Source of the DNA: Methanococcus voltae PS
GTDB taxonomy: Archaea > AGJL01 > Methanococci > Methanococcales > Methanococcaceae
Direction of reading: 5' to 3'
NCBI RefSeq assembly: GCF_024807035.1
Contig: NZ_JANUCQ010000004.1
Span: 62,001-126,000 of the forward strand
Length of the DNA stretch: 64,000 nucleotides
In this document: positions 1-6,057 of the stretch, one piece after another
Layout of the letters: the number at the start of each line of letters is the position of its first letter
How positions within the stretch are numbered: position 1 is the first letter of the stretch
The notes under the pieces: generated by a model
Told to the model about the DNA's origin: nothing
What the model saw: only the letters and a program-made list of their open reading frames with translations
The model's database searches: none
Position numbers and translations under genes: made by a program

Positions 1-1357
1 CCATAGCTTTAGTTAAATAACTCATACCCTCATCAAGTTTACCCAATTTTGAAAGGGATAAACCCATACCTTTATTAAGATAAGCATCGTCAGGAGCGAT
101 TGAAAGAGCTTTTTCATTTACCATTTTTGACTTTTCGTAGTTGCCCAACATAAAACTTACAAAGCCTTGATAACTTAATAATTCGGTGTCTTCTGGACTA
201 ATAGAAAGTGCCTTGTCTAACGCCATACTTGCAATTTGATAATCGCCTGCTCGGGTAAAGTTACCTGCTATACTTTTTAAAGTATCAAAATCATTTATAT
301 TATCCAACCATTTTAATGCCTTATTCATTGCTACAACGTATGAACAATAATTATTTTCTGAATAAATCGTACCATTCATTGTTAATCTTGTATTTGGACA
401 ACCTCCCAAACACATTTGCCCGTAAATACATTCATTACATAGTCCTCCTAATTTGGATTTTTCCATAGTCCTACTCCATGAAAAATTATCCTCATTTTCC
501 CAAATCTCACGCAGTGGAGTTTCTCGGGCGTTTCCTTCAATGTATTCTCGGTCTCTAATAGAAGTACAACCTAAAATCTCACCATTGTGTAATATACCAA
601 AACTACGTTTACCAGCAGTACATCCTTTCCATGTAACATCGTATTCCGCAGGATAAGCCTTTCTACGAACTTCTAGCTCTTTAAGATTATAGTAACCTAT
701 ACAATCAGCCGGGAATATGACAATATCGTCTTTTAAAGAATCGTGTGCAAAATCAATTATCTTATTAACGTCTTCAGGCTTCATAATCATTTCAGGATGG
801 TTTACAAAGTTACCCATCGGCAAACCTATTTGCATTTGCCAAAGTTTTACACCTTTGTCAATCAATACGTGTTTAAGTTCTTCGAGTTCATTTATATTTT
901 TGTTGTGAATTGTTGTTATTGCGCCTGCTGTAACATTAGAATCCCTCATAAGTTCAAAAGCATTCATAATTCTATCGTACGAACCATTCATACGCATATA
1001 ATCGTGAGTTTCTTTTAAACCGTCGAGACTTATTGCCATAGTACCTATTTCTGTCTTTTCAGCTTTTTTTAATATATCTTCGTCAAAAAGCCATCCGTTA
1101 GTAATCATATTTGGGATAACACCATTATCCGTTAATTCTTGGGCTATTACATGCCAATCTTTTCGTACTAAAGGTTCTCCCCCGGATAACGTTATCCATT
1201 TCAACCCCAAATCCCCAATTTCCTGAGATAACTTCACTGCTTCCTCAGTTGTTAATTCATCAGGTAATGGCTCTTTACAACTTGAACCGCAATGTTTACA
1301 TCGCATATTGCAAGCCATAGTAATTTCCCAAACTGCCGTTATTGGTTTATATTCCAA
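1..1357 (-). CDS. Radical SAM/SPASM peptide-maturase-like protein with C-terminal TPR repeats (3' end cut by window edge)
   Basis: 452 codons are visible; the stop lies beyond the left edge. I start it at a TTG (1357-1355) with a GGGGG Shine-Dalgarno 5 nt upstream. The radical SAM cluster motif is C16-x3-C20-x2-C23 (ACNMRCKHC), followed by a GGEP motif. A SPASM domain follows: C-x12-G-x4-C, then C-x2-C-x5-C-x3-C (CNECIYGQMCLGGC) and a later Cys, enough for two auxiliary Fe-S clusters. The last ~110 residues are TPR-like (repeated A-x-x-x-x-P-D/E helices), probably for protein binding. SPASM enzymes usually modify ribosomal peptides or proteins (thioether, C-C or C-O bonds); an anaerobic sulfatase maturase-like role is the alternative, but no sulfatase is near. 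It follows the YG-repeat gene on the same strand after a 205-nt gap, so that protein is its likely substrate. The family is well supported; the substrate is inference. Confidence 0.88.
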   Translation of the reverse strand, partial: MEYKPITAVWEITMACNMRCKHCGSSCKEPLPDELTTEEAVKLSQEIGDLGLKWITLSGGEPLVRKDWHVIAQELTDNGVIPNMITNGWLFDEDILKKAEKTEIGTMAISLDGLKETHDYMRMNGSYDRIMNAFELMRDSNVTAGAITTIHNKNINELEELKHVLIDKGVKLWQMQIGLPMGNFVNHPEMIMKPEDVNKIIDFAHDSLKDDIVIFPADCIGYYNLKELEVRRKAYPAEYDVTWKGCTAGKRSFGILHNGEILGCTSIRDREYIEGNARETPLREIWENEDNFSWSRTMEKSKLGGLCNECIYGQMCLGGCPNTRLTMNGTIYSENNYCSYVVAMNKALKWLDNINDFDTLKSIAGNFTRAGDYQIASMALDKALSISPEDTELLSYQGFVSFMLGNYEKSKMVNEKALSIAPDDAYLNKGMGLSLSKLGKLDEGMSYLTKAM

Positions 1358-1378
1358 AATATCCCCCTAATAATCTTG

Positions 1379-1397
1379 ATTATCATTTATTGATAAT
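1379..1397. promoter_or_regulatory. Inverted repeat upstream of the radical SAM gene
   Basis: 7-bp perfect arms (ATTATCA / TGATAAT) around TTTAT lie 22-40 nt before the TTG start, inside the gap after the repeat-protein gene. It could be an operator, an mRNA processing hairpin or a partial terminator that separates expression of the two genes. The three imperfect copies of an ATAATTTAAACCTA-like unit at about 1465-1510 sit in the same gap. Confidence 0.35.
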
Positions 1398-1562
1398 ATT
1401 TTAACTTATGTTACCTTATTTAGCATATTTTATTAAATAAATAAGAAAGATTAAACTTAAAAATTTAAACCTATAATTTAAACCTAATAATTTAAACCTA
1501 ATAATTTAAAATTTAAAAGTTAAAAAATATGATAGTTAATGAGTAATTAAAGATTTATTATT

Positions 1563-2606
1563 TTATTTGTACGTCCCATCTGGGAATCCGTACTTAACTA
1601 TACAGTTTGGATGCTCAATGAAACCCACAGGGAATCCGTATTTTAAGTTACATTCATTGGCATTCTTAGCAATACCGCTTGGAGTTCCGTATTTTACAAC
1701 GCAACGTTCTGAATCTTCAGTAGTTTTTTCAATACGCACAGGGAATCCGTATTTTAGTATACAATCATCACCTTGTGCATTTTCACAGTCAAATATTGGA
1801 GCTCCGTATTTTAGTATACATTCTTCAGAATTTCTAGATATACCCCATGGTGTACCATATTTAAGTAAGCAATTTTCCTTGCTTTCTATTACCATAGGCG
1901 CAGCGTACAACATTTGGGTTTGTAATCCCCCTACATTTGCAACTGCAGTGTTAGGTGCGCAATTTACGCCGTATGCCACAATTGGGTCGTAGAATTGTCT
2001 TGAAAATCCATACGGTGGAATACATATATTATTAGTTGCCACAGATAAACAAGGTATTCCATACAGTAGCGGAGGTATTGTACCGGCGTTCTCTGTTAAA
2101 CAAGGTACGCCATAATCTGTCACAGGGTCTGGTGGCGTTGGTGCCCCGTAGACTACAATTATACCGCCTGTTTCAGGGTCCTTGTAAGCTTGAATGTTCT
2201 TTTCATTTACGAGAGTGCTCAGTGCTTCAGGAGCAATTTTTAAGAATTTGCTGTCTCCCATAGCAGCGTTTAAACTTCTCATTTCATTTTTAGCTCGGCT
2301 AGTGGTTGGCGATTCAACGATTAATGCGTAGGAAACTTCTTCTGCTACCTCAAAATCTCCAAAAGGTTGTACAAGTTTGAATCCCAAATAATCCTGACCT
2401 TTTTCCATTGCTAAAAATTCAAATGTTACCTTTACCCTTCCCCCAGGTTTTGGGTCAATAACGGTTGTCGTTTTATCCACAAAAGCCACAAAATCAGGAA
2501 TATATGTTATTCCCCATACATACGGGATACCTCCGTTTGTATAAAGGTCAACTTTAAACCTTTCTTTTGCATTTACGTTTATGTCTCCAATTTTCTTATT
2601 CTCCAT
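1563..2606 (-). CDS. Chagasin-like (I42) domain protein with C-terminal YGxP / CxxKYGxP repeats; candidate multi-core RiPP-type substrate
   Basis: 347 aa, no signal peptide or membrane segment, so probably cytosolic. Residues ~10-97 resemble a chagasin/inhibitor I42 fold: the three inhibitor loops are represented by LYTNGGIPYVW (NPTTGY-W loop), PGGR (GxGG loop) and VQPF (RPW loop). Residues ~98-150 form a helical linker. From 150 to the end there are twelve Tyr-Gly-type repeats, with Tyr at 153, 165, 182, 199, 212, 234 (here YAAP), 250, 267, 286, 306, 323 and 339. The last six have the strict form C-x-x-K-Y-G-x-P, with Cys at 246, 263, 282, 302, 319 and 335, spaced 16-20 residues apart. This leader-like domain plus repeated core pattern, directly upstream of a SPASM radical SAM gene on the same strand, is what a multi-core modified peptide system looks like. 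Function is unproven; a free protease inhibitor or metal-binding protein is the alternative. The start ATG has a GGGG Shine-Dalgarno. Confidence 0.7.
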   Translation of the reverse strand: MENKKIGDINVNAKERFKVDLYTNGGIPYVWGITYIPDFVAFVDKTTTVIDPKPGGRVKVTFEFLAMEKGQDYLGFKLVQPFGDFEVAEEVSYALIVESPTTSRAKNEMRSLNAAMGDSKFLKIAPEALSTLVNEKNIQAYKDPETGGIIVVYGAPTPPDPVTDYGVPCLTENAGTIPPLLYGIPCLSVATNNICIPPYGFSRQFYDPIVAYGVNCAPNTAVANVGGLQTQMLYAAPMVIESKENCLLKYGTPWGISRNSEECILKYGAPIFDCENAQGDDCILKYGFPVRIEKTTEDSERCVVKYGTPSGIAKNANECNLKYGFPVGFIEHPNCIVKYGFPDGTYK

Positions 2607-4025: not shown

Positions 4026-4895
4026 TTACCACCAAATTAATGCTTCCTTCGAATCCATATTATATTCCCATCTATCCTCATTTTTCGTTAAAATCTTACT
4101 CAAAAGTTCTTTTACACTGTCTTTTTGGTTTTCCGATAGTTTCAAATCTCTTGTCCTATCATAATCCGTTATGTATTTGCTAAATGCTTCGTCAATGCTT
4201 TCAAAATATTGGTAAAACTGACCCTCGTAAACGTTCACATTTGCAGGAATGCCATACTGGTCAAGTATATTAAGAAGTAAAATATGACTAAGTGACAATT
4301 TAGCTTTTTTACTATTTTCAATATTTAATAAGTCGCCAATTTTACAGTAAATGTCTTTATGAACTGGAAAATCTGCAGATGTTAAAATTCCACAATATTT
4401 ATTTTTTGATTCATTCATTTTTAAAAGACTTTCACCCATGTCATCTACTATTAAAGAATAAGAAGAAAAAACCAAATCGTGCTTTTCAAAATCCTTATTT
4501 AACTCTACATCATCCCATCTTTTAGGTATTATGGTTATATTATCTAAATTTTCTTCCTTAGCTCGTTTTAATAGTATTTTTGCCATTCCTTCAGCAGGTT
4601 CGACAACGGTTATTTTCTTTACAATCTTTGCGAGAGGTATCGTATAGGTACCAGGTCCTGGACCTATTTCTAAAATAGTGGTATTTTTATCTAGATTAAA
4701 AATTTTATTAAATCTTTTAACGTTTTCATTTATTTGAAAAGTTGCTTTTTCGTTGTTAAGTACGTATTTTGCGTACTTTTCCGAAAATTTATCCCAAAAA
4801 TTAGGGTCATAATCCCTAGGTTTATCTACTTTATTGGCTTGAGAATATGTATTAATCCAATATTCCGACCAATCTATATCTTCCATACTAATCAT
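4026..4895 (-). CDS. Class I SAM-dependent methyltransferase, copy 1 of a tandem pair
   Basis: 289 aa. SAM-binding motif I is clear (ILEIGPGPGTYTIPLAK, ~residues 75-91), followed by the acidic VVEPAEGM strand for the ribose. N-terminal WSEYWINTYSQ and C-terminal ALIWW are shared with the next gene. The start ATG follows GGTG by 5 nt. The substrate is unknown; the pair lies upstream of cfbC on the same strand, which allows a corrinoid, F430 or peptide substrate but does not prove one. The paralog at 5197-6057 is about as long and identical over long stretches. Confidence 0.8.
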   Translation of the reverse strand: MISMEDIDWSEYWINTYSQANKVDKPRDYDPNFWDKFSEKYAKYVLNNEKATFQINENVKRFNKIFNLDKNTTILEIGPGPGTYTIPLAKIVKKITVVEPAEGMAKILLKRAKEENLDNITIIPKRWDDVELNKDFEKHDLVFSSYSLIVDDMGESLLKMNESKNKYCGILTSADFPVHKDIYCKIGDLLNIENSKKAKLSLSHILLLNILDQYGIPANVNVYEGQFYQYFESIDEAFSKYITDYDRTRDLKLSENQKDSVKELLSKILTKNEDRWEYNMDSKEALIWW

Positions 4896-5196
4896 TATTA
4901 CACCATTGTGTAGTAAATGGTATTGATATTATTAAAAACTTTAAAGTATATCAAAACCTTATTAATAGTATTTTTACCCAATAATATATAAACAATTAAC
5001 AACCGAATTAAATAAAAACTAATGAGATAAGGTAATTTAAAAATAAAAAGGAATTTAAAAAAATAATATAATATAATTTATAATATAATATAATATAATA
5101 TAATTTATAATATAATATAATATAATATAATTTATAATATATGATAAATATTTATATAACCATATAAATTATAAATATGGTCATAACTACTTAGAT
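4896..5196. other. Intergenic region with a tandem AT repeat
   Basis: 301 bp between the two methyltransferase genes. Inverted arms ACCATT / AATGGT at about 4907-4922 lie just upstream of copy 1. Positions ~5062-5142 are a tandem array of a ~27-bp unit built from ATAAT and TTTATAAT blocks, about three copies. Confidence 0.5.
5062..5142. repeat. ~27-bp AT-only tandem repeat, about 3 copies
   Basis: The unit is ATAATTTATAATATAATATA plus ATAATAT-type extension, repeated nearly exactly. It sits between the duplicated methyltransferases and ends near the stop of copy 2. It is probably replication-slippage DNA. Confidence 0.6.
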
Positions 5197-6057
5197 TTAC
5201 CACCATAAGAAAGCTTCTTTTGATTCGGTATTATAAGTCCAGCCATCTTTGGTTTTTGTAAGTGTATCCTCTAAAAGTTTTTTTACATCATTTATTTGGT
5301 CTTCAGATAGTTCTAATTCTCTTGTTTTGGTATATCCGGACTTATATTTTTTAAAGGCTTCCTCTATGTTATTGAAATATTGGCAAAATGATTTTTCGTG
5401 AATATTTATGTTTGCATAGATTTCATATTGGTTTAAGATATTATTTATTAAAATATAATTAAGACTAAAATCGCCCTTTTTAGTATTTTCTAGATTCAAT
5501 ATGTCACCAATTTTAACATATATATCTTTATGAACAGGTAAATTTCCAAAAGTTAGAATCCCACAATATTTATTTTTTGATTCGTTCATTTTTAAAAGAC
5601 TTTCACCCATATCTTCCACAACTAGTGAATACGATGAAAAAACCAAATCGTGCTTTTCAAAATCTCTATGCAACTCTACGTCATCCCATCTTTTATTAAT
5701 AATAGTTATATTATCTATGTTTTCTTCCTTAGCTCGTTTTAAAAGTATTTCCGACATTCCGGTCGATGGTTCGACAACGGTGATGTTTTTTACAATCTTT
5801 GCGAGAGGTATCGTATAGGTACCAGGCCCTGGACCTATTTCTAAAATAGTGGTATTGTTATCTAGATTAAAAATTTCTTTAAATTTCTCCACATTTCTTT
5901 TTATATCGCCGTTTAAATTTTCATTCGTGAGAATGTGCTTTGCATAATTTTCGGAAAATTTATCCCAAAAATCTACCAAATCTTCCTTAGATTTGTGATT
6001 AATACCCGAATAATTATTTGCCCAGTACTCTGACCAGTTAAAATTTATTAAATCCAT
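5197..6057 (-). CDS. Class I SAM-dependent methyltransferase, copy 2 of a tandem pair
   Basis: 286 aa, collinear with the protein at 4026-4895: WSEYWANNYSG at the N-terminus, motif I ILEIGPGPGTYTIPLAK, the VVEPSTGM acidic strand, WDDVELHRDFEKHDLVFSSYSL, and a C-terminal AFLWW. The start ATG has GGTG 5 nt upstream. Motif I and the FEKHDLVFSSYS region are nearly identical to copy 1, while the ends have diverged, suggesting duplication with later gene conversion or strong constraint on the catalytic core. Substrate unknown. Confidence 0.8.
   Translation of the reverse strand: MDLINFNWSEYWANNYSGINHKSKEDLVDFWDKFSENYAKHILTNENLNGDIKRNVEKFKEIFNLDNNTTILEIGPGPGTYTIPLAKIVKNITVVEPSTGMSEILLKRAKEENIDNITIINKRWDDVELHRDFEKHDLVFSSYSLVVEDMGESLLKMNESKNKYCGILTFGNLPVHKDIYVKIGDILNLENTKKGDFSLNYILINNILNQYEIYANINIHEKSFCQYFNNIEEAFKKYKSGYTKTRELELSEDQINDVKKLLEDTLTKTKDGWTYNTESKEAFLWW

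Follow-up and report, generated by a model that had tools for sequence, protein, structure and literature searches.

The PlpA/PlpXY spliceotide system of Pleurocapsa was reportedly described by Morinaka in 2018. In this system, PlpXY excises tyramine (C8H9NO, 135.0757 Da) at XYG (PMC10533398; PMC11002830), and working PlpXY tags include cores that resemble PIRPLYGLPI (PMC10533398). PlpX, the founding splicease, is placed in IPR026482 (PMC11002830). The spliceotides have been reported as protease inhibitors (PMC11117315, PMC10373908). Here, we analyzed a 64,000-nucleotide stretch of the Methanococcus voltae PS genome (the window), at the left edge of which two genes encode a chagasin-domain protein with a repeat-rich tail and a radical SAM enzyme. 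We think it likely, if short of certain, that the pair is a spliceotide-like module on the scale of a whole protein, with a splicease as the enzyme, a spliced tail that is retained, most likely a multi-warhead protease inhibitor as the product, and a bacterial origin.

A chagasin-domain protein with a repeat tail

The predicted splicease substrate is a 347-amino-acid chagasin-domain protein with twelve Y-G/Y-A units, encoded at positions 1563–2606 on the minus strand and delineated by ORF, domain, and motif analysis. No signal peptide was seen on inspection of the sequence by eye. Residues 10–96 (positions 2319–2579, minus strand) match the chagasin domain, Inhibitor_I42, with an E value of 6.3e-8, above the Pfam cut-off. 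The chagasin fold is that of a cysteine-protease inhibitor. In an AlphaFold model built from an eight-member family alignment, the first ~100 residues are folded with fair confidence (pLDDT about 60–83), and residues 102–347 are disordered. A Foldseek search with this model ranks EhICP2, a chagasin-like inhibitor from Entamoeba, first and also matches T. cruzi chagasin, with TM-scores on the target of about 0.6–0.7 for the chagasin-type matches. The modeled N-terminal fold thus appears chagasin-like. Elsewhere in the host, chagasin-domain proteins occur without the enzyme (G000:C1:377373–379178, C1:615928–616497, and C2:130411–130680), and one host chagasin ORF of about 700 amino acids contains six I42 matches.

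The tail is made up of six irregular units (VVYGAP, TDYGVP, LLYGIP, PPYGFS, VAYGVN, and MLYAAP) in residues 151–237 (positions 1896–2156, minus strand), followed by six strict C-x-x-K-Y-G-x-P units in residues 246–342 (positions 1581–1871, minus strand), which start at residues 246, 263, 282, 302, 319, and 335. Both sets were located by motif analysis. The first-pass annotation, which was made from the sequence alone, had described twelve YG(x)P repeats. The number of units holds, but eleven are Y-G and one is Y-A (LYAAP), and only nine are strict YGxP. Its chagasin domain and its six strict CxxKYGxP units are borne out by the I42 match, the fold match, and the motif positions.

We calculated dN/dS across the three Methanococcus genomes that carry the gene pair. 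The values for the six strict units are 0.016, 0.044, and 0.041, the lowest of any part of the protein, with 0.07–0.13 for the chagasin domain. Each of the six strict units has a Cys at the same position, and this Cys is constant across the three Methanococcus species. Because the strict units have the lowest dN/dS despite their predicted disorder, and because the arrangement recurs in several phyla, the repeat architecture is not a product of chance. A tail that is disordered and at the same time the most constrained part of the protein has the look that would be expected of a modified core.

The radical SAM enzyme

The enzyme gene follows the repeat-protein gene on the same strand after a gap of 205 bp. 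Domain matches identify it as a radical SAM/SPASM/TPR enzyme, the predicted splicease, at positions 2–1357 (minus strand), where it runs off the left edge of the window; the complete enzyme is 511 amino acids long (L004:15823–17358). Its start codon is TTG, behind a GGGGGAT ribosome-binding-like site. The radical SAM CxxxCxxC motif (C16, C20, and C23) lies at 1289–1312, the SPASM domain at 344–622 with all seven cluster cysteines present (C246, C264, C307, C310, C316, C320, and C338), and the TPR tail, which begins at about residue 368 and continues past the window, at 2–256, all on the minus strand. The description of a same-strand radical SAM enzyme with complete SPASM ligands and a TPR tail, given at first reading, is therefore accurate.

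The top NCBIfam models for the window enzyme are TIGR04103 (nif11-class maturase 3) and TIGR03913. TIGR04103 is the best-scoring model at 216 bits, though this falls far short of its cut-off of 725 and is not much higher than the scores for other SPASM families (TIGR04133 189 and AhbD 172 bits), a point against the splicease reading. We take IPR026482, the entry that includes PlpX, to be the TIGR04103 entry. The window enzyme forms a single group with the TIGR04103 (PlpX-type) and TIGR03913 (GDL-type) enzymes, set apart from 19 other radical SAM proteins with an SH-aLRT value of 99.8. A W[QNH]xQ..MGN signature is present in 64 of the 66 group members and in 0 of the 19 other proteins. Of 66 relatives, 64 have the complete SPASM pattern, and contig ends interrupt the other two. 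The window enzyme is thus kin to the PlpX-type spliceases. We also considered whether the TPR tail is tied to multi-site substrates, and dropped this idea because one-site NHLP precursors also pair with TPR-tailed enzymes.

The neighborhood of the module has features of its own. In all three genomes, the gene after the enzyme encodes a right-handed beta-helix (NosD-like) protein of ~940 amino acids with an S_layer_C domain (L004:12567–15380, just left of the window). One of the three has a second peptide system past the enzyme and beta-helix genes (L006:4857–8161), which is absent at that place in the other two. It consists of two ~300-amino-acid proteins with a common N-terminal region, one of them with a dense Cys/Gly/Ala repeat tail, and then a TIGR04463 radical SAM/SPASM RiPP maturase (789 bits vs. 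a cut-off of 525). Upstream of the module, at window positions 4026–6057, are two tandem paralogous SAM-dependent-methyltransferase-like genes; the other two Methanococcus genomes have one such gene at that place.

Pairing and distribution of the two genes

Of 36 Methanococci genomes, 3 have both genes, and neither gene is found in the other 33. With the enzyme as query, GTDB contigs yielded dozens of full-length homologues, 41–58% identical with the TPR tail included, mostly from Clostridia and also from Bacteroidales, Spirochaetales, and Thiodiazotropha. The repeat protein as a query gave no match in a pattern scan of genome contigs or in a plasmid search, and its relatives were reached only by way of the enzyme homologues. 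Proteins with a chagasin domain and a Y-rich repeat tail adjoin the enzyme at loci L022, L029, L030/L108, L038, L041, L045, and L047, and an I42 match was obtained for seven of the eight aligned chagasin-plus-repeat proteins. The bacterial hosts of such pairs are Clostridia, Bacteroidia, and Thiodiazotropha.

We searched with a profile of the repeat protein in 786 genomes drawn evenly within classes. The 391 Clostridia yielded two repeat-bearing proteins, one of them new (L114, with 16 YG), and both adjoin the enzyme. The 395 Bacteroidia likewise yielded two, one of them new (L118, with 6 KYGYPC/KYGYPG units), again both adjoining the enzyme. Three weaker matches in Clostridia are plain chagasin proteins without repeats. 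Across the 36 Methanococci, the GTDB enzyme loci, and the 786 sampled genomes, no repeat-bearing chagasin protein was seen without an adjoining enzyme. The first-pass annotation had proposed a check of co-occurrence and had named repeat proteins widespread without the enzyme as evidence against a partnership; every repeat-bearing chagasin protein found adjoins the enzyme, and the adjacency recurs in bacteria. The converse is not strict, as many enzyme relatives adjoin small GG-leader or NHLP precursors. The Sporomusa enzyme (L023:6001–7539), which falls inside the chagasin-linked group, had no substrate beside the gene or by genome profile search, and we count this against our best explanation.

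In a quick tree of the enzymes, in which several forks are weak, the chagasin-linked enzymes cluster (3 changes vs. 11.3 after shuffling). The enzymes of the three Methanococcus genomes are nested among those of Clostridia and Thiodiazotropha. This position fits transfer from bacteria, and the module apparently came to the Methanococcus clade from there.

Could an ordinary low-complexity protein simply lie by chance beside a radical SAM gene? The 205-bp gap would allow it, as would the fact that no other pathway genes are conserved alongside. Against this stand the strict co-occurrence and the adjacency in several phyla; the independent pairs refute a chance arrangement in practice, and we give it almost no weight. 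Very probably, one gene encodes an enzyme and the other its substrate, and the two form a real mobile module. The enzyme-substrate pair with a multi-site core that had been proposed at first reading is upheld, as is the remark that a radical SAM enzyme is not usually paired with a chagasin domain.

Related enzymes also occur beside much smaller peptides. Methanosarcina MAGs (L075:5508–5639 and L077:5564–5701) have a kin enzyme and a 43–45-amino-acid peptide ending PVP(I/L)YG(V/I)VRPLYGVPL(E/K), a second and minimal archaeal case. Agathobacter rectalis (L018) and Blautia caecimuris (L064) have a near-identical enzyme accompanied by an MFS transporter and by a short peptide that ends in PVMYGTGVRM, and this near-identity points to recent transfer among gut Lachnospiraceae. 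The Agathobacter record is labelled a plasmid, yet it carries rpoC, rpsL, fusA, and tuf.

Substrate motif and predicted chemistry

We counted 91 units, which by definition contain Tyr, in ten chagasin-type substrates. Gly comes directly after Tyr in 68 units, Asn in 11, Ala in 7, and Met in 5. Lys precedes Tyr in 48/91, the second residue before Tyr is Leu, Val, Ile, Met, or Phe in 72/91 (background 22%), and the third residue after Tyr is Pro in 64/91. In the GG-leader relatives, Gly follows Tyr in 64 of 67 units. Instead of YG units, the Anaerobacterium chagasin protein (L030/L108:1462–2046) carries repeats of VKYMAP, and these are informative on enzyme specificity.

A raw frame-level count of the YG motif was too noisy, and we used an ORF-based adjacency test in its place. 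By this strict automatic test, YG-bearing ORFs on the sense strand adjoin 45 of 62 enzyme genes; the corresponding figures are 6 of 62 for the antisense strand and 6 of 20 for the loci of unrelated radical SAM genes. Among the 17 genes that failed the test, several have Y-G, Y-A, Y-N, or Y-M precursors on visual inspection, some of which sit past an ABC transporter. A YG motif is found beside a bona fide TIGR04103 family member: a Nostoc enzyme that scores 853 bits, well above the cut-off, adjoins a Nif11 precursor that ends SIALYGLPPELF (ALYGLPPELF).

The kinship of the enzyme with TIGR04103 and related families, together with the YG(L/I)P motif, argues for tyramine excision and not for a thioether or crosslink. 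The most likely modification by the predicted splicease would therefore be a loss of 135.076 Da per site. The first-pass annotation had instead predicted a Cys thioether or Tyr crosslink with a loss of 2 Da. Cys thioethers of the sactipeptide/ranthipeptide type, or Cys/Tyr crosslinks, in every CxxKYGxP unit would account for a Cys that is fixed in the six strict units and constant in three species, and SPASM enzymes often make thioethers. However, most relatives (Saccharicrinis, both Bacteroidales, Anaerobacterium, and G410) have units that keep Tyr and are without the CxxK-position Cys, which favors Tyr as the residue acted on; the thioether maturase models StsB (119 bits) and PapB (77 bits) also score lower than TIGR04103. 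The earlier prediction is probably wrong, and we hold such crosslinks to be quite improbable.

Another possibility is that this branch is not a true splicease and that Tyr undergoes some other reaction at Y-G, Y-A, Y-N, and Y-M, such as a C-C or ether crosslink, C-alpha chemistry, or epimerisation. Radical SAM families that are close kin can catalyze different reactions, and the enzyme lies at a large distance from TIGR04103. Residues other than Gly also follow Tyr, and ORF inspection recognized no PlpY/RRE partner beside the enzyme in the window or at the other chagasin-type loci, though PlpX works with PlpY; both points also count directly against the splicease reading. Set against these, the prevalence of Gly after Tyr in both the chagasin-type and GG-leader units is the splicease motif, and YG(L/I)P is common to PlpX-type precursors. 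A different Tyr reaction seems to us unlikely. If the enzyme is a splicease, its TPR tail may substitute for the PlpY/RRE partner.

Predicted product and function

In the mechanism that we propose, the TPR-tailed radical SAM/SPASM splicease would act at every X-Tyr-Gly unit, and perhaps at X-Tyr-Ala too. The tyramine part of Tyr would be cut out and the backbone rejoined, leaving alpha-keto-beta-amino acids in an uncleaved protein. The tail would be neither trimmed nor exported but would remain on the chagasin domain, and the product would be a multi-warhead protease inhibitor in which each site is a reactive ketone. Ketoamides are reversible traps for serine and cysteine proteases, and a hydrophobic residue followed by Lys, ahead of the ketone, would match the preferences of papain-like proteases and of those that favor Lys.

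A comparison of the chagasin-type loci showed no common peptidase, transporter, or RRE-like gene; several of the GG-leader relatives adjoin a C39-type ABC transporter. Since no peptidase or transporter is conserved at the chagasin-type loci, the product is probably the uncleaved protein. Two fates had been offered at first reading. For the same reason, the release of about six small rings lacks support, and we retain the other fate, in which the repeats stay attached, as more likely.

The chagasin domain itself gives mixed signals on inhibition. Bacterial relatives retain the STGYxW loop (L022, L029, L038, and L108, the last with STGYSW and also RPWEP). The Methanococcus domain has lost the canonical TGYxW loop, its counterparts of TGYxW and RPW being degenerate (GGIPYVW and QPFG), and a search of the host genome for a papain-family self-target gave no Pfam Peptidase_C1 match. 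Both of these points weigh against the inhibitor reading; with a degenerate loop and no Peptidase_C1, the target would be an outside protease or one of another class. They would also suit a chagasin domain that is a mere leader or scaffold for the enzyme, perhaps for its TPR tail, and a spliced tail that serves a non-inhibitory role such as carbonyl capture or self-crosslinking of ketones with Cys/Lys, all the more as every ketone predicted in the strict units has Cys and Lys next to it. The chagasin-like loops of the bacterial relatives and the reported inhibitory activity of spliceotides speak against this arrangement, which we regard as somewhat doubtful.

For the multi-warhead inhibitor, a broader proposal can be put forward tentatively, at a little below an even chance. 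The module may represent a class of uncleaved hybrid inhibitors, each with a chagasin domain and up to sixteen ketoamide warheads, made by a PlpY-free, TPR-tailed splicease in several bacterial phyla and an archaeon, possibly with splicing at Y-A, Y-N, and Y-M. If so, backbone splicing would equip a folded protease inhibitor with reactive groups at many sites, in a methanogen too, and inhibitor fold and chemical warhead would come together in one gene product. The enzyme would be a splicease that possibly does without an RRE partner, and there would be a tool for multi-site ketone installation. What began as a vague RiPP-like guess becomes a prediction of a specific mass shift.

Comparison with known systems

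PlpA/PlpXY of Pleurocapsa is like the window module in that its SPASM radical SAM enzyme belongs to the same larger group and its X-Tyr-Gly units are often YG(L/I)P, with several sites per precursor spliceable. However, its leader is NHLP/Nif11 and not chagasin, and PlpX works with PlpY, which was not seen here. The TIGR04103 relative from Nostoc is without the TPR tail of the window enzyme and only about 31% identical to it. The TIGR03913 GDL-motif enzymes found with DUF1843 peptides (Azospirillum and Aureibacter) are also kin, at 31–34% identity, and their substrates, small and in tandem, carry PYG, LYG, LYA, or MYA/MYM close to the start, but these are short peptides with a Y-X10-GDL motif and without a chagasin domain.

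The GG-leader/NHLP systems of Acetivibrio, Pseudobacteroides, and Syntrophomonas have enzymes that are 50–55% identical, TPR tail included, and LYGI or KYGV units that are often repeated. Unlike the chagasin type, they have small precursors with cleavable-looking leaders, several of them beside a C39-type peptidase-transporter, and mostly Pro-Leu ahead of Tyr where the chagasin type has Leu/Val-Lys. The I42 inhibitors EhICP2 and T. cruzi chagasin have the N-terminal fold in common with the repeat protein, and the TGYxW loop is kept in its bacterial relatives, whereas the Methanococcus domain is without this canonical loop. To our knowledge, the known I42 inhibitors have neither a YG-repeat tail nor a modifying enzyme.

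The Scott 2022 survey is said to hold 939 predicted systems. Our literature search, which lay outside that survey, found no account of chagasin/I42 or KYGxP repeats with a radical SAM enzyme, nor of archaeal spliceases. Spliceotides as such are already known; what is unusual here is that the carrier has an inhibitor fold, that the sites are so many, that PlpY is apparently absent, and that the host is an archaeon.
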